Below, one piece after another: positions 43,725-56,672 of a stretch of 64,000 bases of DNA. The notes under the pieces were generated by a model that was not told the DNA's origin, did not search any database, and worked only from the letters and a program-made list of their open reading frames with translations. Position 1 is the first letter of the stretch. Each line of letters opens with the position of its first letter. The position numbers and the translations under genes were made by a program. The stretch is from an uncultured Saprospiraceae bacterium. GTDB taxonomy: Bacteria > Bacteroidota > Bacteroidia > Chitinophagales > Saprospiraceae. The stretch spans positions 1-64,000 of the forward strand of contig CAKZVK010000021.1 in assembly GCA_937921825.1 (NCBI GenBank). The letters run 5' to 3'.

Positions 43725-44483
43725 ATGAGATTTTTAAAATACCTAATGATATTCACTCTAGGGGCTGCCCTATTGAGTAACTGTGGTGATGCCTGCGACG
43801 ATGTAGATTGCGGTGCAAATGGTACTTGCCTAGATGGCACTTGCGACTGTGACGAGGGCTACTCTGGCACTAATTGCCAGACTAATGTCTGTGATGCTCT
43901 AGACTGTGGACCTAATGGAACTTGCGACACCACCACAGGTGCATGTCTATGTGATGAGGGCTACTCAGGAGACAATTGCGAAATCAATGTCTGCGATACT
44001 GTAGACTGCGGACCTAATGGAACTTGCGACACCACTACAGGTGCTTGCCAATGTGATGAGGGCTACGAAGGAGATAATTGTGAAACTGAAACAAGATCAA
44101 ACTATTACGGTAGCTACCAAGGAGATATCGTCCCTTGTGTACCTGCGTTTCTGGCTGCATTAATTCCAGCTGACCAATTAGAAACTCTAATGACCACTGA
44201 TCTGGATGTGTTTGAATCTGCTACAGGTATTAGTTATGTGACAGTAGGATCAATGAATACTGTCCTTAATCTGAATATAGATGCAAACCTAAATGACCCA
44301 GAATTTACAATCGAGGAATTTACTCAGGAAGTGGATGTAGAAGGTACAATGGTAGTTATAACAGGATCAGGAACAGGAAGATTCTTAGATACTGAAAATC
44401 TAGAGTTGACCCTATTTCTGAATTTCAATCTTGATATCCTAACATTTGATTCTGATTGTGTGACGATCTTTACTAAGCAGTAA
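43725..44483 (+). CDS. Lipoprotein with three tandem EGF-like repeats
   Basis: The protein has 252 residues. The signal MRFLKYLMIFTLGAALLSNC ends at the lipid-acceptor Cys20. Three EGF-like units follow at about residues 24-123, each with six cysteines (DCGPNGTCDTTTGAC then CDEGYSGDNCE). A C-terminal domain of about 125 residues (YYGSYQGDIVPCVPAFLAAL to the end) has no recognised family. The EGF part suggests an extracellular binding role. Lipid anchoring in Bacteroidota often leads to surface exposure. A strong terminator follows. Confidence 0.82.
   Translation: MRFLKYLMIFTLGAALLSNCGDACDDVDCGANGTCLDGTCDCDEGYSGTNCQTNVCDALDCGPNGTCDTTTGACLCDEGYSGDNCEINVCDTVDCGPNGTCDTTTGACQCDEGYEGDNCETETRSNYYGSYQGDIVPCVPAFLAALIPADQLETLMTTDLDVFESATGISYVTVGSMNTVLNLNIDANLNDPEFTIEEFTQEVDVEGTMVVITGSGTGRFLDTENLELTLFLNFNLDILTFDSDCVTIFTKQ
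43890..44093 (+). repeat. Two 102-base tandem EGF coding units
   Basis: Units 43890-43991 and 43992-44093 agree at about 84 of 102 bases, with mostly third-position differences. A shorter, more diverged first unit lies at 43794-43889. This indicates tandem duplication within the gene. Confidence 0.8.
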
Positions 44484-46006: not shown

Positions 46007-46732
46007 CTAGAGTATTTTCATCAGGTCATCAGTACCTACATATTCCTCACATAAGAAACCTTCTCCATACTTGACACCTATCCGTCTGCCAAAAGCTGTA
46101 GCACGACCAGTCAAAGAATCCAGAAAAGACTGACTAGAAATAGGCGTCTGAGGTCCTTTCATTTTCTTATCAAAAAACTGAGAACCGTAACACATTACAA
46201 ACTCAATCTTTCTCTCCATATACTCTGATACGTCTACAACTACATCCGGCACTAAGTCATGATCTTGAATATATGAAAACACTTTACGGGGTCTCCACTT
46301 CTGCTGTTTCCTTGATCCTACTTTAGTTTCTATTTTTTGTAAGCCGGCAAGGAAACAAGCTTCTTTGATGAGTAAGGAAGCTCTGCCATGATCTGGATGA
46401 CGATCTTTAGGTGCATTAGCCAAGACGATATCTGGCTGGTATTTCCGTATGGCTTTTATAAGCTTGAGTTTATTAGCCTTGTTATTTTCAAAAAAACCAT
46501 CAGCCATCGCGAGATTATCTCTGTACGAAATACCTGCATATTTCATCGCTTTTCGGGCCTCTTTGAGACGGAGGGTTGCAGAACCCCTCGTTCCTAGTTC
46601 TCCCTTAGTCAGGTCTACTACTGCTACACCATAGCCTAAATCTATTTGCTTCAGGATGGTCGCACCTGCTCCTAATTCAATATCATCAGGATGAACTCCT
46701 ATCGCTAGAATATCTACTTTATACTTATTCAT
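46007..46732 (-). CDS. bshB1: Bacillithiol biosynthesis deacetylase BshB1
   Basis: The ATG at 46732 gives 241 residues; it overlaps the fabH stop as TAATG. It is a zinc-dependent LmbE/PIG-L-fold deacetylase. Zinc ligands are in IGVHPDDIELGAGAT (His14, Asp17) and in DRHPDHGRAS. LTKGELGTRGSATLRLKEAR is typical of BshB1 rather than MshB. It removes the acetyl group from GlcNAc-malate to give GlcN-malate, the second step to bacillithiol. The glycosyltransferase BshA and cysteine ligase BshC are not in this window. Confidence 0.92.
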   Translation of the reverse strand: MNKYKVDILAIGVHPDDIELGAGATILKQIDLGYGVAVVDLTKGELGTRGSATLRLKEARKAMKYAGISYRDNLAMADGFFENNKANKLKLIKAIRKYQPDIVLANAPKDRHPDHGRASLLIKEACFLAGLQKIETKVGSRKQQKWRPRKVFSYIQDHDLVPDVVVDVSEYMERKIEFVMCYGSQFFDKKMKGPQTPISSQSFLDSLTGRATAFGRRIGVKYGEGFLCEEYVGTDDLMKIL

Positions 46733-47784
46733 TACCATCTTATTAGAGTACTTCCCCAAGTAAAGCCACTACCAAAAGCAGCCAAACAAACGAGGTCTCC
46801 TTTCTTTATCTTTCCAGCGGCATGAGCCTCAGAAAGCGCTATGGGAATAGAAGCCGCAGTCGTATTACCGTACTTCTGTATATTATTGAAAACCTGGTCA
46901 TCAGAGAGCCCTAGAGACTTCTGGACAAACTGGGCTATTCTAAGATTAGCCTGATGAGGTATGAGCATATCTATATCTGACTGCTCTAGTCCTTCTGACT
47001 TCAATGCTTCATTTATCACCTCTACAAACTTTACTACTGCTTTCTTGAAGACTTTCTGGCCATTCATATAAGGATACATCATCCCTTCATTTACCATCTT
47101 CTCTGTAGCGAAAAGACCACCGGGTTTATCTTCATTATGGAAGCCATAATCAATGTCATCATGATAGCCACTGTGACTTCCAAAGTTAATGAGTGCCAGT
47201 TCCTCAGCATAGGTTCCATCAGAATGAAGTTTACTCGTAAGGATACCTTCACTCTCCTCTGTAGGTTGTAAGATCACTGCACCTGCACCGTCTCCAAAGA
47301 TGACAGAAACTGTACGTCCCTCGGTACTGAAGTCTAGGCCCATAGAATGAAATTCCGCACCTACCAGTAGGATATTCTTATACATCCCAGATCTGATAAA
47401 CTGATCTGCGACAGACAGCCCATAGACAAAACCCGAACATTGATTCCTTATATCGAGTGCTCCGATTTCTGTTTTCGTGATACCTAACTCTCTCTGTAGC
47501 AGCACTCCACAACCTGGAAAATAGTAATCTGGACTCAAGGTACAGAAGATGATAAAGTCGACGTCCTCCTTAGAAATTCCTGCCTTTTCTATAGCTGCAC
47601 GAGCAGCGTGAGCCCCCATAGTAGTTGTCGTTTCCTTATACTTGGTGGCATAGCGTCTCTCTTCTATTCCTGTTCTTTCTCTGATCCACTCATCCGAAGT
47701 ATCCATATACTTAGTGAGATCATCATTGGTAAAAACGTTCTCTGGAACATAGTGTCCTATTCCAGCTATTTTGGTTGAAGGCAT
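46732..47784 (-). CDS. fabH: 3-oxoacyl-ACP synthase III (FabH family)
   Basis: The protein has 350 residues. It condenses acetyl-CoA or a related primer with malonyl-ACP to start fatty acid synthesis. The triad is Cys116 in IRNQCSGFVYG, His277 in LIPHQANLRIAQ and Asn307 in KYGNTTAAS. An insert at about 215-245 (INFGSHSGYHDDIDYGFHNE) makes it longer than Escherichia coli FabH, as in many Bacteroidota homologues, some of which take branched primers. It overlaps bshB1 by one base and is divergent from the inositol-lipid operon. Confidence 0.92.
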   Translation of the reverse strand: MPSTKIAGIGHYVPENVFTNDDLTKYMDTSDEWIRERTGIEERRYATKYKETTTTMGAHAARAAIEKAGISKEDVDFIIFCTLSPDYYFPGCGVLLQRELGITKTEIGALDIRNQCSGFVYGLSVADQFIRSGMYKNILLVGAEFHSMGLDFSTEGRTVSVIFGDGAGAVILQPTEESEGILTSKLHSDGTYAEELALINFGSHSGYHDDIDYGFHNEDKPGGLFATEKMVNEGMMYPYMNGQKVFKKAVVKFVEVINEALKSEGLEQSDIDMLIPHQANLRIAQFVQKSLGLSDDQVFNNIQKYGNTTAASIPIALSEAHAAGKIKKGDLVCLAAFGSGFTWGSTLIRW

Positions 47785-47873: not shown

Positions 47874-48572
47874 TTGAATCCTATCAAAAAAAGCCTCCAG
47901 CAACTCGTATACACTATTCTTAATCCTTTGATCCAACTACTGATCAAACTAGGGATTACGCCTAATATGGTGACCTTCTTCGGGTTTCTGCTGAATATCG
48001 TATGTACTGGAGTCCTGATCTATGGCGCTGAAGTAGGTGACAGGAGTGATCATAGATTCCTAGGCTATGCGGGATTAATCATTCTACTGGCAGGAGCCAT
48101 GGATATGATAGATGGGAGGCTAGCAAGGCTGAGTGGGACTGATCATCCCTATGGCGCACTGTATGATTCAGTCCTGGATCGATATAGTGAATTAGTCATG
48201 TTCTTTGGGTTTTGCTACTACACAGTAACCCAGGATTATCTATTGACTTCTATTTTCTCGTTTATAGCTATGATCGGCTCTATCATGGTATCCTATACCA
48301 GAGCAAGAGCGGAGGGTCTAGGTGTGACTGCCTCTGTAGGACTGATGCAGAGACCCGAAAGAATCGTACTGGTCGCTACTGCCAGTATCGTTACCTATTT
48401 TATGTCATTGTATCTAGGAGGTGATTTTGTATATAAAGTAGATGGAATCAAGCAACCCATTTTTGAAACTATATCATTCTTCAGCTGGCCCATATTTTTC
48501 TTAGCCATTTCTGCTAACATTACAGCTCTGAGAAGATTGTATTACTCTAGAGCAAAATTGATGTCGAAATAG
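47874..48572 (+). CDS. CDP-alcohol phosphatidyltransferase, probable phosphatidylinositol-phosphate synthase
   Basis: The protein has 232 residues and about six membrane helices. The catalytic signature D-x2-D-G-x2-A-R-x8-G-x3-D-x3-D is complete: Asp77, Asp80, Gly81, Ala84, Arg85, Gly94, Asp98 and Asp102 in DMIDGRLARL and GALYDSVLDR. The start is a TTG 29 bases after the -7 box; no ATG precedes the first helix. The family moves a phosphoalcohol onto diacylglycerol from CDP-diacylglycerol. Being first in a row that also has inositol-phosphate synthase and a PgpA-type phosphatase, the acceptor is most likely inositol phosphate (product phosphatidylinositol phosphate). PgsA or PssA roles are the alternatives. 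Confidence 0.86.
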   Translation: MNPIKKSLQQLVYTILNPLIQLLIKLGITPNMVTFFGFLLNIVCTGVLIYGAEVGDRSDHRFLGYAGLIILLAGAMDMIDGRLARLSGTDHPYGALYDSVLDRYSELVMFFGFCYYTVTQDYLLTSIFSFIAMIGSIMVSYTRARAEGLGVTASVGLMQRPERIVLVATASIVTYFMSLYLGGDFVYKVDGIKQPIFETISFFSWPIFFLAISANITALRRLYYSRAKLMSK

Positions 48573-48593
48573 TTTTAAATTGTGGGTATTGAC

Positions 48594-48601
48594 TAATTTT
48601 G
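48594..48601 (+). promoter_or_regulatory. Possible internal -7 box before the DUF4833 gene
   Basis: TAATTTTG is an exact TAnnTTTG match in the 60-base gap between the first and second genes of the inositol-lipid row, 31 bases before the ATG at 48633. The nearest TTG is only 11 bases upstream, so support is partial. Confidence 0.4.
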
Positions 48602-48632
48602 TCATTCAAAAGAACCAGAATATTAGGACCTC

Positions 48633-49154
48633 ATGCTTGATAATTTTAATAAACTCAAATTCAAGTTCAATTATACTGGGCAGGTAGGTCTACCAGAAAA
48701 CTATCCGACTCCTCAAGTAAGCAATCTCGTATTGTATCTGCAAAGGAATCTAAATTATAATACTGTAGTCTATACTCTCAATCTCAACCAAGATGGTACC
48801 CTATGTGATTCCATGCCACTTGAGGTCTTCTGGGTAAATTATGAAAATGGGGTCAGACACAAAAGTCTAAATAAAATACAAAGCCAGTTAGTCTATGGCT
48901 ATAATAGCTGGAAGATAAATAGTGATACACATAAATTTCAGATCGTCTCATATCCACAAAAAGACTTTTACTTAGCAAAGGACGATTCTGGTGACTTCCA
49001 GATTTTTACTAAGCTCAATGATCAAATGGCAGTAGTCAAAAATATCTTTGTTTATGCTGAAGAGTTCGGTGTATTTCCCCAAGTAAAATTCATCGAGTTA
49101 TATGGCTACTCTGTGGAAGATTCCTTTCCGATCTATCAAAAAATACTTCTTTAG
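48633..49154 (+). CDS. DUF4833-like protein in the inositol-lipid operon
   Basis: The protein has 173 residues, without signal peptide or membrane helix. The segments LVLYLQRNLNYNTVVYTLNL, PLEVFWVNYENGVRHKSLNK and SQLVYGYNSWKI fit the DUF4833 pattern, a family with no established function. It is all-beta in appearance. It lies between the phosphatidyltransferase and the PAP2 gene, eight bases before the latter. Position suggests a soluble or membrane-associated helper in inositol-lipid synthesis, or transport, but nothing in the sequence names a reaction. Confidence 0.72.
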   Translation: MLDNFNKLKFKFNYTGQVGLPENYPTPQVSNLVLYLQRNLNYNTVVYTLNLNQDGTLCDSMPLEVFWVNYENGVRHKSLNKIQSQLVYGYNSWKINSDTHKFQIVSYPQKDFYLAKDDSGDFQIFTKLNDQMAVVKNIFVYAEEFGVFPQVKFIELYGYSVEDSFPIYQKILL

Positions 49155-49162
49155 AAGAATAC

Positions 49163-50098
49163 ATGGTTCATTCTAGTTCTTACAACCGGTTTTCTCAAGC
49201 CTGGCTTATTTCCTTTGGGATCTTATCAGTACTCTACTGGGTATGGTTTGCAGGCTTTGTAGGAGTAGATACTCTGGCAGTGGGATTTTTCATATTGATG
49301 ATTGCCTTGTTTTTTGGCAATGAAACGAGTCGGAAATTTGGCTTGGCTTTTTCTCCTCTCTTCATCTACATGATCTGTTATAGTTCCTTGAAAATATTGC
49401 ATGATTACAATCCCTTTCCTATCCTAGTCAAAAAGCTCTACGATTTGGAAGTCCAATTCTTTGGTGTGGATGTCAATGGGACGAAAGTAACTCTGTGTGA
49501 GTATTTCAATGAGCATATCCATCCTTTCTTTGATATCGTAGCGGGCACCTTTTATATTACTTGGGCCCCCTTCCCTATTCTATTTGGAATCTATATCTTC
49601 TTTAAGAATAAAAGGAAGCTCGTGTTTGATTTCTGGTTATGCTTTCTATTGGCCAATATTTTTGGCTTCATAATATATATTCTGCTTCCCGCAGCACCAC
49701 CCTGGTACTATCTACAATATGGAGATAATCTAATGGTCAATGCACCTGGAGAACCTGCAGGCTTGGCTCGATTCGATGAGATGATTGGTTTTCCTCTCTA
49801 TCATGGAATGTACAGTCAGGGTACAAATACCTTTGGTGCTCTACCCTCCATGCATGCGGCGTTTCCGCTTGTTTTGAGCTTTTATAGCCTAAAATATGGG
49901 AACAAAGTCCTCAGTACCTTGTTCATCATTAGTCTTCTAAGTATCTGGTTCGGAGCAGTTTACTCCAATCATCACTATATAATAGATGTTTTGATGGGTA
50001 TTGGTTGCGGGATTATTGGTATTTTTCTAATTGAAAACACTGTAAATAGTAACTTAGTGCCGTCTTGGTATACTAAAACTATAGATTACATTAAGTAG
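49163..50098 (+). CDS. PAP2/Aur1-like membrane enzyme, probable inositol phosphorylceramide synthase
   Basis: The protein has 311 residues and about six to eight membrane helices. The PAP2 phosphatase/transferase motifs are GALPSMHAAFP with His231 and SNHHYIIDVLMG with His270, His271 and Asp275. The preceding YILLPAAPPWY (about 172-182) is the Pro-rich motif that sets Aur1-type inositol phosphorylceramide synthases apart from ordinary phosphatases. It would transfer phosphoinositol from phosphatidylinositol to the ceramide made by the next three genes. It stands 16 bases before serine palmitoyltransferase. A simple lipid phosphatase is the alternative. Confidence 0.83.
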   Translation: MVHSSSYNRFSQAWLISFGILSVLYWVWFAGFVGVDTLAVGFFILMIALFFGNETSRKFGLAFSPLFIYMICYSSLKILHDYNPFPILVKKLYDLEVQFFGVDVNGTKVTLCEYFNEHIHPFFDIVAGTFYITWAPFPILFGIYIFFKNKRKLVFDFWLCFLLANIFGFIIYILLPAAPPWYYLQYGDNLMVNAPGEPAGLARFDEMIGFPLYHGMYSQGTNTFGALPSMHAAFPLVLSFYSLKYGNKVLSTLFIISLLSIWFGAVYSNHHYIIDVLMGIGCGIIGIFLIENTVNSNLVPSWYTKTIDYIK

Positions 50099-50111
50099 AC
50101 CTCAAACTTAA

Positions 50112-52450
<2,339 letters not shown>

Positions 52451-52458
52451 ATAGCTGC

Positions 52459-53451
52459 ATGACCAAAAAGTTACTAATCACAGGTGCTAATGGATTCGTA
52501 GGAAGCTGGCTAGTAGAAGAAGCTATCAGTCAAGGTTATCACGTCTACGCTGGCATCAGAAAAACCAGTAATACCCAATATCTGACTGATCCCAGAATTC
52601 ATTACTTCTACTACAGTTTTGAAAAAGAAGATGAACTCAGGGACCAATTACTGCAGCACCAGTTTGACTACATCATTCTAAATGCTGGAGTGACAATTGC
52701 AAAAAACAAAGAGACTTACTTCAAGATCAATGCAGGCTACACAAGAAAATTCTGCAAGATTCTAATAGAAGAAAAACTGCTCCCTCGGAAACTGGTCTAC
52801 ATTAGTAGCCTGGCGTCCTATGGTCCTGCTGAGTATCAAGTGAAGCAAGTTCTGGATTCTGAGAGTTCACCACATCCAGTGACATGGTATGGAGAATCTA
52901 AGTTGCAAGCAGAGCAATTTGTCATGAATTCAAGACCCATAAACTATCTCATATTCCGACCTACCGCTGTATTTGGGCCCAGAGATACAGAGATGGTATC
53001 AGTATACAAATCAGTAAAGTCTGGACTCTCTGCCAAGGTGGGCTTTGGAGCTATGGATGCCAGCTTCATCTATGTAAAGGATCTAGCCAAGGTTGTGATA
53101 GATTCACTAGCAGCTTCAGTGATAAACAAGTCCTATTTTCTTAGTGATGGGAAGATATATCCTATAGAAGAGCTCAATTCTAATATCAGTGATATACTGG
53201 GAAAGAAGACCTTCAAGATCAGTATCCCATTTGCCATAATGAAAGTTATAGCAGCTATAAGTGAGCTATATGGTCATATACGAGGCCGAGCACCTATGCT
53301 AAATAGGAACAAAGTGAAGGAATATTTTGCGAGGTCCTTTGCAATAGATACTACAGACTTAGAAAAAGATTTTAACTTCGCACCTGCTTATGACCTTAGG
53401 TCTGGTCTAGAAGAGACAATAGCATGGTGCAAATCAAATAATTTACTTTAA
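52459..53451 (+). CDS. NAD(P)-dependent epimerase/SDR-type reductase, candidate ceramide reductase
   Basis: The protein has 330 residues. It is an extended SDR with the nucleotide loop LITGANGFVGSWL at the N-terminus, the catalytic Tyr/Lys in WYGESKLQAE and the Ser in YISSLASYG. FRPTAVFGPRD is typical of epimerase-like members. The gene is eight bases after the N-acyltransferase. In other bacteria an SDR of this type reduces the 3-keto group of the sphingoid base or oxidised ceramide (CerR). That is the likely job here; a sugar epimerase cannot be excluded. Confidence 0.76.
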   Translation: MTKKLLITGANGFVGSWLVEEAISQGYHVYAGIRKTSNTQYLTDPRIHYFYYSFEKEDELRDQLLQHQFDYIILNAGVTIAKNKETYFKINAGYTRKFCKILIEEKLLPRKLVYISSLASYGPAEYQVKQVLDSESSPHPVTWYGESKLQAEQFVMNSRPINYLIFRPTAVFGPRDTEMVSVYKSVKSGLSAKVGFGAMDASFIYVKDLAKVVIDSLAASVINKSYFLSDGKIYPIEELNSNISDILGKKTFKISIPFAIMKVIAAISELYGHIRGRAPMLNRNKVKEYFARSFAIDTTDLEKDFNFAPAYDLRSGLEETIAWCKSNNLL

Positions 53452-53464
53452 TCAACAATTTATA

Positions 53465-54817
53465 ATGGCAGCTAGAAAAGCAGCAACTAAGACTAACAGG
53501 TCGACCAAACCAAAAGGTATAGCTTCTAAGGCTACTGGCAAATTAGGTATCCTAACTCCTGGTATGGGAGCTGTAGCGACTACATTTATTGCTGGAGTAA
53601 TGGCAATAAATAAAGGCTATGCTTCCCCTATTGGATCATTAACTCAGATGGGTAGAATGAGAATAGGCAAAAGAACAAAGAAGAATATCCCTTACATGAG
53701 TGATGTTGTTCCTTTACAGGATCTTAAAAAAGTCGTCTTCGGTGGATGGGATATCTTCAAAGACAACATGTACGAGGCAGCAGTTCATGCTGACGTACTA
53801 GATAAAGAGCTATTAAGTAAACTGAAAGCTCCCCTATCTAAGATCAAGCCTATGAAAGCTGTCTTTGACAAAAAGTATGTCAAGAAGCTGCATGGTACAC
53901 ATGTCAAGAAAGCTAAGACCAAAATGGATCTGGCTAAGGCAGTCATGGCTGACATCAGAAGATTCAAGAAAACGAATAACTGTAGCAGACTTGTGATGGT
54001 ATGGTGTGGAAGTACAGAAATCTACATTGAAGAATCTGCTGTCCATAAGACTATAGAAGCTTTTGAAAAAGGTCTAGAGAAAAACTCTAAGCTTATAGCT
54101 CCTAGTATGATCTATGCCTATGCTGCAATCAAAATGGGTATCCCATATGCTAACGGTGCTCCTAATCTGTCTTGTGATATTCCTGCCCTAGTAGAGCTGT
54201 CTAAAAAGACTCAAGCACCTATAGCAGGTAAAGACTTCAAGACAGGTCAGACGCTGATGAAAACGATTCTTGCACCTGGATTCAAAGCAAGAGCCTTAGG
54301 GATAGATGGATGGTTCTCTACTAACATCTTAGGTAACAGAGATGGAGAGGTACTAGACGATCCGGATAACTTCAAGACTAAGGAGGTTTCTAAGCTCGGT
54401 GTACTAGAGCAAATCTTAGAGCCGAAACTCTACCCAGAACTCTATAAAGACTTCTACCATAAAGTAAGAATCAACTATTATCCCCCTAGAGGAGATAATA
54501 AAGAAGGATGGGATAATATTGACATCAAAGGATGGCTAGGTTATCCTATGCAGATAAAAGTAGATTTCTTATGTAGAGATTCTATTCTTGCTGCACCGAT
54601 CGTACTGGATCTAGCTATCTTCTTAGACCTTGCTAAAAGATCAGGAATGTCAGGTATTCAAGAATGGTTATCATTCTACCTTAAGTCTCCTCAGGCACCT
54701 GAAGGCAGATACCCTATACATGATATCTTCAAGCAGTTATCTAAACTAGAAAACACATTGAGATACATAGGTGGTCACAAATTGATAGACCACTTAGGTC
54801 TAGACTATGATGAATAA
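53465..54817 (+). CDS. ino1: Myo-inositol-1-phosphate synthase
   Basis: The protein has 450 residues. It converts glucose 6-phosphate to inositol 3-phosphate using NAD. Visible family parts: the glycine-rich loop KLGILTPGMGAVATTFIAGV, SLTQMGRMRIGKR, FGGWDIFKDNMYEAA, IAPSMIYAYAAIKMG, YANGAPNLSCDIPALVEL, GKDFKTGQTLMKT, and late NILGNRDGEVLDD and MQIKVDFLCRDSILAAPIVL. The first 25 residues are a Lys/Thr-rich extension. This is the committed inositol source for the row; its presence strongly sets the acceptor of the phosphatidyltransferase as inositol phosphate. It lies 13 bases after the SDR gene and three before the PgpA gene. Confidence 0.95.
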   Translation: MAARKAATKTNRSTKPKGIASKATGKLGILTPGMGAVATTFIAGVMAINKGYASPIGSLTQMGRMRIGKRTKKNIPYMSDVVPLQDLKKVVFGGWDIFKDNMYEAAVHADVLDKELLSKLKAPLSKIKPMKAVFDKKYVKKLHGTHVKKAKTKMDLAKAVMADIRRFKKTNNCSRLVMVWCGSTEIYIEESAVHKTIEAFEKGLEKNSKLIAPSMIYAYAAIKMGIPYANGAPNLSCDIPALVELSKKTQAPIAGKDFKTGQTLMKTILAPGFKARALGIDGWFSTNILGNRDGEVLDDPDNFKTKEVSKLGVLEQILEPKLYPELYKDFYHKVRINYYPPRGDNKEGWDNIDIKGWLGYPMQIKVDFLCRDSILAAPIVLDLAIFLDLAKRSGMSGIQEWLSFYLKSPQAPEGRYPIHDIFKQLSKLENTLRYIGGHKLIDHLGLDYDE

Positions 54818-54820
54818 AAC

Positions 54821-55294
54821 ATGATGAAACTTCATAAAGCCATAACAACTGTTATGGGCTTAGGATATGCGCCTATTGCTCCGGGAACCTTCGGTACAAT
54901 AGGCGCTGTCATTTTCTACTATCTCCTAAGCTTGTATTTTACCCAAGTACCTGCACCGCTCTTGGTCGTGCTATCTATAGTCCTTGCGATCATAGGAATA
55001 TGGAGTACAGACAAGGTCATACCACTATGGGGAGATGATCCTTCTAAGGTTGTCATGGACGAATTTGTAGGCTATCTAATCACCATGATCCTTATTCCTA
55101 CAGAACTGAGATACATGATTCTAGGCTTTGTCCTTTTCAGATTCTTTGACATCCTGAAGCCACTAGGAGTAAGATATCTCGATAAAAATCTGAAAGGGGG
55201 ACTAGGTGTCATGATGGACGATGTGCTCGCCGGGGTATATGCCTGTATCTCGCTACATCTGATAGTGTACTATCTTCCGGGTCTATTTCAGTAA
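54821..55294 (+). CDS. PgpA-family phosphatase, probable phosphatidylinositol-phosphate phosphatase
   Basis: The protein has 157 residues with about four membrane helices. Family motifs: GYAPIAPGTFGTIGA at about 15-29, WGDDPSKVVMDEFVGYLITM, and the late RFFDILKPLGVRYLDKNLKG, GLGVMMDDVLAGV. PgpA normally removes phosphate from phosphatidylglycerol phosphate. In Bacteroides thetaiotaomicron a PgpA-like gene sits in the inositol lipid cluster and acts on phosphatidylinositol phosphate. The tight packing after inositol-phosphate synthase favours that role here, while phosphatidylglycerol synthesis stays possible. Confidence 0.85.
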   Translation: MMKLHKAITTVMGLGYAPIAPGTFGTIGAVIFYYLLSLYFTQVPAPLLVVLSIVLAIIGIWSTDKVIPLWGDDPSKVVMDEFVGYLITMILIPTELRYMILGFVLFRFFDILKPLGVRYLDKNLKGGLGVMMDDVLAGVYACISLHLIVYYLPGLFQ

Positions 55295-55297
55295 CCT

Positions 55298-55693
55298 ATG
55301 TCGGAAGCGAAAGTTCCTTTTTTCCAATCCCTGATAAAATCCCAAATAGGGTCATTCACTGCTACCCTTTTTGATTTCTCTACTTTGTATGCCCTTACGG
55401 AATGGCTAGGAATCTATTATGTCATCTCCGCAGGTATCGCCAGCGGAGTTGGAGCTGTAGTAGGCTTCGTCGTCCAGAGAAACTGGGCCTTTAAGAGAAC
55501 AGATAAGCAATGGCAATACCAAGCCATAAAGTATGGGCTCGTCAGCCTTCTTATTCTACTGCTCAATATGGTAGGCATCTATCTATTTACCGAGCTGATG
55601 CACTTTCAGTATATGATATCGAAAGTCATTATCGCCTTTCTGATAGGCCTATTTATTTCCTTTCCTCTATTCAGGTACTATGTCTACAATTAG
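55298..55693 (+). CDS. GtrA-family membrane protein
   Basis: The protein has 131 residues and four membrane helices. The first helix and loop (SQIGSFTATLFDFSTLYALT, GAVVGFVVQRNWAFKR) give the GtrA pattern. GtrA proteins usually help move lipid-linked sugars across the membrane, next to a glycosyltransferase. It follows the PgpA gene after three bases, and the next glycosyltransferase gene overlaps it by 14 bases, so the two act together. Its substrate here may be a glycolipid derived from the inositol lipid, which is inference. Confidence 0.86.
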   Translation: MSEAKVPFFQSLIKSQIGSFTATLFDFSTLYALTEWLGIYYVISAGIASGVGAVVGFVVQRNWAFKRTDKQWQYQAIKYGLVSLLILLLNMVGIYLFTELMHFQYMISKVIIAFLIGLFISFPLFRYYVYN

Positions 55694-56672
55694 TATTGTC
55701 ATGCCAGTGAGGAATAGCGAACCTTTTCTTACTGATTGTCTAGATTCGATACTTGCGCAGACCTATGAGCAGTGGGAACTCCTAGTTGTCAATGATCATA
55801 GTAGCGATAAGAGTGCAGAAATACTTCAAGCATACAAACAAAAAGACCAACGTATAAGCGTATATGAAAATACTGGCAAAGGCATCACACCTGCCCTGAT
55901 GACCGGATATCAATATGCTCAAGGGTCATTGATTACAAGAATGGACTCTGATGACCTGATGCCAGAAGAAAAATTACAGCTGCTCAAAGATAAATGGGAG
56001 ACCACTGGAAAAGGCCACATCATCACTGGCTTAGTTAAGTACTTCGCTGACTTCCCTATCAAGGATGGATACAAAAACTATGAAGCATGGCTCAATGAGC
56101 TTACACTTTCTGAATCTAATCTAGAGGAGATCTATAAAGAATGCGCCGTCGCGTCACCCAACTGGCTGATCCATAAAGAAGATTTTGACGCCACTGCTGG
56201 GTTCAATACTGAAATGTATCCCGAAGATTATTGTCTTTTATTCAAATGGAAAGCGGCAGGCTATAAAATAGCAAGCGTCGATAAAATCACACATCTATGG
56301 CGAGACTCTATGGATCGTGCCTCTAGAACAGATGACAACTATTTAGATAATAGATTCACAAAACTTAAAGTGCATTACTTTAAGCAGATAGATTACAAGC
56401 CTGAGAAAACCCTTGTTCTATGGGGAGCGGGAAATAAAGGAAAGGCCATCGCAAAAGAACTCATAGCTAATGAATTACCTTTCAGATGGATCTGCAACAA
56501 TTACAATAAAGTAGGTCTAAAAATCTATGATGTAGAGATGGAAGAAATCCAATCTTTAGCAACACAACCTGATGCCCAAGTAATCATAGCTGTCAGTCAA
56601 AAGAACGCCTCTAATGAAATAGAAAACCTGCTAAAGGGATATCACTTAGAAGACTACTTTTTCTTCACTTAG
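55680..56672 (+). CDS. Family 2 glycosyltransferase with C-terminal nucleotide-binding domain
   Basis: The protein has 330 residues. The GT-A domain covers about 1-230: ISIVMPVRNSEPFLTDCLDS, LLVVNDHSSD, the metal-binding D-x-D in RMDSDDLMP, and the late HLWRDSMDRAS. The last 90 residues are a separate Rossmann-like module with VLWGAGNKGKAIAKELI and DAQVIIAVSQ, resembling nucleotide-binding or sugar-dehydrogenase tails. The gene overlaps GtrA by 14 bases and ends next to the convergent nucleoid-associated gene, so it closes the operon. Donor and acceptor are unknown; a role in decorating the inositol lipid is a hypothesis from position. Confidence 0.86.
   Translation: MSTISIVMPVRNSEPFLTDCLDSILAQTYEQWELLVVNDHSSDKSAEILQAYKQKDQRISVYENTGKGITPALMTGYQYAQGSLITRMDSDDLMPEEKLQLLKDKWETTGKGHIITGLVKYFADFPIKDGYKNYEAWLNELTLSESNLEEIYKECAVASPNWLIHKEDFDATAGFNTEMYPEDYCLLFKWKAAGYKIASVDKITHLWRDSMDRASRTDDNYLDNRFTKLKVHYFKQIDYKPEKTLVLWGAGNKGKAIAKELIANELPFRWICNNYNKVGLKIYDVEMEEIQSLATQPDAQVIIAVSQKNASNEIENLLKGYHLEDYFFFT

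Follow-up and report, generated by a model that had tools for sequence, protein, structure and literature searches.

Gene Content and Layout of the Locus

Inositol-headed sphingolipids are best known from yeast and plants. We describe here a row of ten genes from an uncultured bacterium of the family Saprospiraceae (Bacteroidota; assembly GCA_937921825.1) that very probably encodes a complete pathway for inositol phosphorylceramide (IPC) in one biosynthetic unit. The row occupies positions 47874 to 56672 of the window, i.e., the 64,000 nucleotides of contig CAKZVK010000021.1 (positions 1 to 64,000, forward strand; G000:C21 in our numbering) that were analyzed, and the host genome amounts to 4.0 Mb in 172 contigs. 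An earlier note on this DNA had reported ten plus-strand genes in a tight row, and all ten open reading frames (ORFs) were confirmed at the coordinates that it gave, with successive intergenic distances of 60, 8, 16, -4, 8, 13, 3, 3, and -14 bases, eight of the nine junctions thus being shorter than 20 bases or overlapping. The gene families that it named agree with our calls, made for the ten genes with Pfam and NCBIfam, and its list lacked three members of the row: a DUF4833 protein, a GtrA-family membrane protein and a GT2 glycosyltransferase. The first gene begins with a TTG codon at 47874, and by eye an in-frame stop codon begins 12 bases upstream. Scans for promoters (22 promoter-like sequences vs. 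a shuffle mean of 25.6) and terminators (8 terminator-like sequences vs. 6.4 in shuffles) returned about chance level, so that co-transcription of the row would follow from gene spacing and conservation only.

Predicted Genes for Inositol Phosphate and Phosphatidylinositol

The first gene (47874–48572) codes for a CDP-alcohol phosphatidyltransferase of the BT_1523 type (PF01066; best model NF052561, PIPSynBT1523), the putative phosphatidylinositol phosphate (PIP) synthase (PIPS), which can be aligned to the phosphatidylinositol (PI)/PIP synthase structures 5d92 and 6h53. Its sequence shows D-x2-DG-x2-AR ... G-x3-D-x3-D, which we take to be the catalytic motif of CDP-alcohol phosphatidyltransferases, in agreement with the claim of the earlier note that the catalytic Asp residues are present. 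Further down the row lies a gene for a myo-inositol-phosphate synthase (MIPS; 53465–54817; PF07994/PF01658) of the BT_1526 type, which scores 559 bits (E 9e-167) against the BT_1526 crystal structure 7nwr and is the sole PF01658 match in the host genome. The glycine-rich NAD loop of this protein, GMG-AVATT, is one residue shorter than the GVGGAVATT of BT_1526, and the short loop recurs in 13 of 14 relatives inspected. The adjacent PgpA-type phosphatase gene (54821–55294; PF04608, E 1e-42) is of the BT_1525 type, and by analogy with BT_1525, as described in the available excerpt of PMC9246714, its product may convert PIP-diacylglycerol to PI-diacylglycerol. It is followed by the gene for the GtrA-family membrane protein (55298–55693; PF04138, E 1e-16; BT_1524 type), and GtrA adjoins PgpA in most loci having both.

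The last gene (55680–56672) codes for a GT2 glycosyltransferase with a C-terminal extension (PF00535, E 7e-33) and overlaps the GtrA gene by 14 bases. A homologue stands at the same place in four of the 13 other members of the genus, one copy being truncated, and GT2 is an accessory, not a core part of the row. Should GtrA and GT2 act together, the final lipid could be a glycosylated IPC, a bacterial counterpart of the glycosyl-IPCs of fungi and plants. The overlap of the two genes and the retention of GT2 in these four genomes speak for such a product, which we nonetheless regard as improbable, as GT2 was not seen in the other nine genus members (two of them cut at contig ends). Deletion of BT_1524 (GtrA) is also described discordantly in the excerpts at hand, with no lipid phenotype by thin-layer chromatography in one (PMC9246714) vs. 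lower IPC in the other (PMC8791184).

Predicted Genes for Ceramide

The gene for serine palmitoyltransferase (SPT; 50115–51317) encodes a protein that scores 684.9 bits against NF047600, over the cut-off of 640, and 527 bits against the Sphingobacterium SPT structures 8guh and 3a2b, vs. at most 327 bits against the remaining kinds of listed enzymes, the next being entries of the 8-amino-7-oxononanoate synthase/KBL type, and 257 bits against the cysteate acyltransferase 28eh. DHA.IIDG and a second region align with 8guh, and both are presumably catalytic regions. This is the sole SPT-type copy found in the host genome, where two further alpha-oxoamine synthases were found: Kbl (TIGR01822, 700 bits) and one at G000:C2. 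The latter (L042) is under every listed NCBIfam cut-off and, by eye, adjoins a VOC-family dioxygenase-like gene. According to the part of PMC11324152 that was available, SPT of the Bacteroidetes type uses acyl-CoA.

Sulfonolipids are present in Bacteroidota, where a related cysteate acyltransferase is used (28eh; PMC9304779, excerpt), and the G000:C2 enzyme could serve such a route. A reading of the acyl-amino half of the row as yielding a sulfonolipid of the capnine type, not a sphingolipid, was nevertheless rejected and appears highly unlikely: the SPT of the row scores twice as high for SPT as for cysteate acyltransferase and passes the SPT equivalog cut-off.

References for the next two genes were picked by gene order. 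In E. coli BL21, yghO adjoins genes for a fatty acyl-AMP ligase, an epimerase, an acyl carrier protein and spt, and P. veronii has the same run; a phage search with the P. veronii region gave no match. The accessible part of PMC9386255 names the BL21 genes aca, aasR, epi, acpR, and spt, corresponding to CC_1154, CC_1165, CC_1164, CC_1163, and CC_1162, and makes yghO the counterpart of CC_1154, which dihydroceramide requires.

The tandem-GNAT N-acyltransferase of the window (51314–52450) shares 36% identity (378 aligned positions) with P. veronii YghO and 34% with a Rubrobacter GNAT located between SPT and a short-chain dehydrogenase/reductase (SDR), and it is the only match in the host genome to the P. 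veronii YghO query (E 1e-68). A midpoint-rooted tree of 30 rows, with no outside GNATs included, divides at a 100/100 split into 22 rows, among them the window GNAT and the YghO proteins of E. coli and P. veronii, and eight rows of a second Bacteroidota GNAT type. The AlphaFold2 model of the window GNAT (predicted local distance difference test, pLDDT, 91) has tandem GNATs as best PDB matches, with N-myristoyltransferases lower down. Together, these observations support membership in the bacterial ceramide synthase (bCerS/YghO) family, and N-acylation is the predicted activity. In the comparisons made, the second GNAT type shares 27–31% identity with the window GNAT; it was observed between SPT and SDR in the fused loci L053, L057, L051, L064, L070, L075, L078, and L111, as though one ceramide synthase had been exchanged for another.

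The following gene (52459–53451) encodes an extended SDR, probably a CerR (or a 3-oxosphinganine reductase), carrying GANGFVG (GxxGxxG) and Y144-G-E-S-K (YxxxK). With P. veronii CerR as query, it is the best match in the genome (62 bits vs. 23 and 21 for the next) at 25% identity over 325 aligned positions. An attempt at phylogenetic proof of its identity as CerR failed: a grouping with Proteobacterial CerR is not firm (82/19) in a tree with weak deep branches and long outgroups. By inspection, its N-terminus runs directly into the Rossmann motif without a visible signal. The enzyme could hence, with its GxxGxxG and YxxxK motifs and no signal-peptide-like start, act in the cytoplasm beside SPT, and the pathway may follow the eukaryote-like order, in which 3-oxosphinganine is reduced to sphinganine before N-acylation. 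One group has put forward that order for Caulobacter, and B. thetaiotaomicron has a distinct 3-ketosphinganine reductase, BT_0972, that is active in vitro, as read in excerpts of PMC11324152 and PMC9278070. Caulobacter CerR, however, is periplasmic, and its deletion leads to the accumulation of oxidized ceramide (PMC11087976, excerpt); the gene order SPT-GNAT-SDR fits acylation first but is no proof. We consider reduction before acylation a plausible contender, though the less probable order.

The Putative IPC Synthase

The third gene (49163–50098) encodes a protein of 311 amino acids of the PAP2 superfamily, of the Aur1/BT_1522 type, the putative IPC synthase (IPCS). Residues 39–281 align with the yeast AUR1 structures 9vj3 and 9ivc (E 8e-18 and 1e-17), and over this region both enzymes share PAAPPWY, PS(M/L)H, and HHY..D; the window enzyme differs in its length and in having DUF4833 as a neighbor. 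PAAPPWY, H231, H270, H271, and D275 are invariant in all 16 aligned sequences, the window included, and we take the last four to be the catalytic His and Asp residues of PAP2 motifs. A comparison with characterized proteins, proposed in the earlier note for the PAP2, GNAT, and SDR products, came out in favor of the first two (AUR1 at E 8e-18; 36% identity to a ceramide synthase of the YghO/CC_1154 type); for the SDR, it held for the best match in the genome and not for a firm grouping in the tree (82/19).

Conservation and Spread of the Fused Layout

Of the 13 other members of the genus, 11 have the full nine-gene order PIPS-DUF4833-IPCS-SPT-GNAT-SDR-MIPS-PgpA-GtrA, and in the remaining two (G010 and G007) the row is collinear and cut at contig ends. 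Conservation across the genus indicates that the row is more than chance. The same order is also complete in G015, from another genus of the family, while G029, likewise from another genus of the family, has the inositol genes without SPT-GNAT-SDR and carries SPT on a different contig. At E 0.001, the IPC synthase model finds matches in 18 of 59 relatives: all 13 of the genus, two of 23 from the family's other genera (G015 and G029) and three of 23 in the order, one of the latter being weak (G046, 22 bits). Among the 21 family members without IPC synthase, SPT exceeds 500 bits in G028 alone, two more lying at 383–390 bits, from which it appears that SPT in this family largely accompanies IPC synthase.

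A wider scan of contigs covered the best 80 of 554 confirmed IPC synthase loci, a list that favors window-like sequences. Excluding five loci of the window genus, at least 40 of the remaining 75 contain SPT (≥300 bits), at least 32 contain SPT, GNAT, and SDR, and at least 22 contain MIPS and PIP synthase as well, all these counts being lower bounds owing to contig ends and a flank of 10 kb. In a sample of 392 genomes from the phylum, which carries less bias, 15 have IPC synthase, the host included. Eight of the 14 others carry SPT of at least 500 bits at 6.4–9.0 kb, four (G091, G287, G394, and G421) carry it on another contig or more than 800 kb away, and two (G306 and G427) have no SPT of that score.

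Gene orders were read from 109 loci, in which some genomes appear twice. Order A, that of the window, was found in 17 loci (L043–L046 repeat genomes already counted). Order B, PIPS-MIPS-PgpA-GtrA-DUF5686-SPT-GNAT-SDR-DUF4833-IPCS, was found in seven, and order C, SPT-GNAT-SDR-MIPS-PgpA-GtrA-DUF5686-PIPS-DUF4833-hydroxylase-IPCS, in six, with variants of order C missing one or more members; in Dyadobacter koreensis (L084), no MIPS was seen in the row. Another seven loci have MIPS-PgpA-GtrA-PIPS-IPCS without SPT. The survey of gene order in related genomes suggested by the earlier note thus showed the nine-gene order in 11 of 13 genus members and the two halves joined elsewhere in different orders. 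Its view that both halves are fused into one unit stands, with the correction that the layout is not peculiar to the organism but widespread in environmental Bacteroidota.

Two additional genes were observed in these loci. In loci of type C, a fatty acid hydroxylase (PF04116; L077:9274–9927 and relatives), possibly a ceramide hydroxylase, lies between DUF4833 and IPC synthase; it occurs in 17 of the best 80 of 554 loci and was not found in the host genome in a search run without a positive control. A protein of about 860 amino acids with CarboxypepD_reg and DUF5686 (L077:5400–7985 and relatives), perhaps the BT_1527-like neighbor mentioned in the excerpt of PMC9246714, occurs in 44 of the best 80 of 554 loci and is not in the row of the window.

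Comparison with Known Systems

Among Bacteroidota, inositol sphingolipid genes have been elucidated in gut Bacteroides, in whose genomes SPT is separate from the inositol genes. In B. thetaiotaomicron, the inositol cluster comprises BT_1522 (IPC synthase), BT_1523, BT_1524 (GtrA), BT_1525 (PIP phosphatase), and BT_1526, and SPT is encoded separately by BT_0870, as the earlier note had correctly stated (PMC9246714 and PMC8791184, both in excerpt). All five gene types are found in the window, and the order MIPS-PgpA-GtrA matches that of BT_1526-1525-1524; the window differs in having SPT, GNAT, SDR, and DUF4833 within the same row. The ceramide genes of Caulobacter and E. coli BL21 (CC_1162, CC_1164, and CC_1154; yghO) are likewise represented by SPT, a full-length GNAT and an extended SDR, whereas the row has neither acpR nor aasR, its SPT is of the Bacteroidetes type, and its SDR is only ~25% identical to P. 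veronii CerR. An alternative cluster of B. vulgatus and Prevotella, with an NTP transferase, a CDP-alcohol phosphatidyltransferase and a HAD protein, is described in the available part of PMC9246714; it has the same proposed end product, and DUF4833 occurs with such genes in L175, but the row of the window lacks NTP transferase and HAD and has the PIP/PgpA route instead.

In the excerpt of PMC11334938, the genes for SPT, bCerS, and CerR are observed not to lie close together in sphingolipid-producing Bacteroidota. The fused loci qualify this statement, as many environmental lineages depart from such separation: a tight locus combining both halves, in several arrangements, is found in environmental Bacteroidota, including strains of Pedobacter (P. 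kyungheensis, L088), Niastella (N. yeongjuensis, L106), and Rufibacter (R. hautae, L094). No description of the fused layout was encountered in the literature searched, which did not extend to the founding paper on bCerS and CerR (10.1038/s41589-021-00948-7). What is new here is the combined layout with its variants, along with DUF4833, rather than the enzymology. Gene order also places candidates for ceramide synthase and reductase, which are less certain in Bacteroidota than SPT, and the whole pathway could be transferred to laboratory E. coli as a single cassette.

Proposed Pathway to Inositol Phosphorylceramide

We infer substrates, product and order of steps from the homologies set out above. 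MIPS would convert glucose 6-phosphate to inositol phosphate, which the CDP-alcohol phosphatidyltransferase would join with CDP-diacylglycerol to give PIP, and the PgpA-type phosphatase would turn PIP into PI. In parallel, SPT would condense serine and acyl-CoA to 3-oxosphinganine, which the tandem-GNAT protein would N-acylate before reduction by the SDR to dihydroceramide (or in reverse order). The Aur1-like PAP2 enzyme would then transfer phosphoinositol from PI onto dihydroceramide, with release of diacylglycerol. DUF4833 and GtrA may be accessory components of the membrane or envelope, and GT2 may add an optional later decoration. The earlier note had derived IPC from glucose 6-phosphate, serine, and CDP-diacylglycerol; homology bears out the enzymes needed, and its list of inputs was incomplete, for the route additionally consumes two acyl-CoA and NAD(P)H.

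Several observations weigh against this reconstruction. The sole NCBIfam match of the IPC synthase at E 0.001 is NF052609 (PhinosDhcerSyn), with 265.3 bits for a cut-off of 480 that is reached in none of 60 genomes, and the PIP synthase scores 289.8 bits against NF052561, under the cut-off of 350; being under curated cut-offs, both proteins are relatives and not certified equivalogs. The CerR label is weaker, drawing on a one-way best match and gene order with a tree grouping that is not firm. No ceramide flippase was identified, and support for the IPC pathway comes from homology. Finally, SPT of at least 500 bits is absent from four genomes that have a PAP2 relative, G306 and G427 in the phylum sample (loci L139 and L141) and G037 and G047 in the order (loci L024 and L023), which suggests that a PAP2 enzyme of this kind need not always use ceramide.

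These four genomes would also suit a different arrangement, in which the PI and ceramide pathways are separate, their genes being neighbors for the sake of common regulation, and the PAP2 enzyme uses another acceptor. Such an arrangement seems very improbable to us, given that the PAP2 enzyme aligns with AUR1, that its sole NCBIfam match is the BT_1522-type model, and that its gene sits between the PI genes and the SPT gene in the row. A single pathway leading to IPC thus remains by far the preferred interpretation.

DUF4833

The second gene (48633–49154; PF16117, E 1e-34) encodes a DUF4833 protein, a companion of IPC synthase that is unnamed in the literature searched, and is singled out by the layout as a component worth testing. 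In the phylum sample, DUF4833 occurs in 29 of 392 genomes, i.e., in 10 of the 15 that have IPC synthase and in 19 of the 377 that lack it (Fisher p 2e-9, with the host counted and kinship uncorrected; the draws made for DUF4833 and IPC synthase were treated as identical, having the same size and settings and handles that agree where listed). Each of the 10 genomes with both has a DUF4833 copy no more than 0.8 kb from its IPC synthase gene. A strict tie between the two was rejected, as 19 of the 29 DUF4833 genomes have no IPC synthase match and the context of L174 is a hydrogenase locus. Outside IPC loci, neighbors were classed by Pfam in three of 14 places: DUF4833 adjoins a phosphatidyltransferase and GtrA in L172, a hydrogenase in L174, and, in L175, lies in a cluster of NTP transferase, phosphatidyltransferase, and HAD genes that resembles the alternative B. 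vulgatus inositol cluster. An anti-phage reading of DUF4833, GtrA, and GT2 was also tried and dropped, with no PADLOC match.

By a hydropathy rule, the N-terminus of 24 of 38 DUF4833 proteins is strongly hydrophobic and resembles a signal peptide. The other 14 belong to the window and to relatives within Saprospiraceae whose rows are of type A or too short to tell; elsewhere in Saprospiraceae, DUF4833 has a signal-like start in no fewer than two loci (L096 and L099). The AlphaFold2 model (pLDDT 89) is nearly all beta and has no convincing counterpart in the PDB (none with Foldseek at E 0.001, a best VIA Z of 3.1), which by itself does not establish a new fold.

Yeast Aur1 works with a partner, Kei1. 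We tentatively suggest, as a speculation of low probability, that DUF4833 could be a hitherto unrecognized, Kei1-like partner subunit of IPC synthase, beta-rich and secreted in most Bacteroidota, whose export signal would have been lost in this group of Saprospiraceae. It might then mark a physical coupling of SPT, GNAT, SDR, and IPC synthase, passing intermediates to one another at the inner membrane, of which the fused gene orders would be the genomic trace.

Neighboring Genes

Divergently oriented upstream of the row, a FabH-type β-ketoacyl synthase (KAS) III gene and a gene for the bacillithiol deacetylase BshB1 (TIGR04001, 282 bits) occupy 46007–47784 on the minus strand. FabH with BshB1 is present in 12 of the 13 other genus loci, adjoining the PIP synthase gene in 11 and lying ~7 kb off in L025; the pair was not seen in L038, whose contig begins at the PIP synthase gene. 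BshB1 points to bacillithiol and not to N-acetylglucosaminyl-PI (GlcNAc-PI) chemistry. Farther upstream, at 43725–44483, lies a small lipoprotein-like ORF in which tandem EGF-like cysteine repeats can be recognized by eye.

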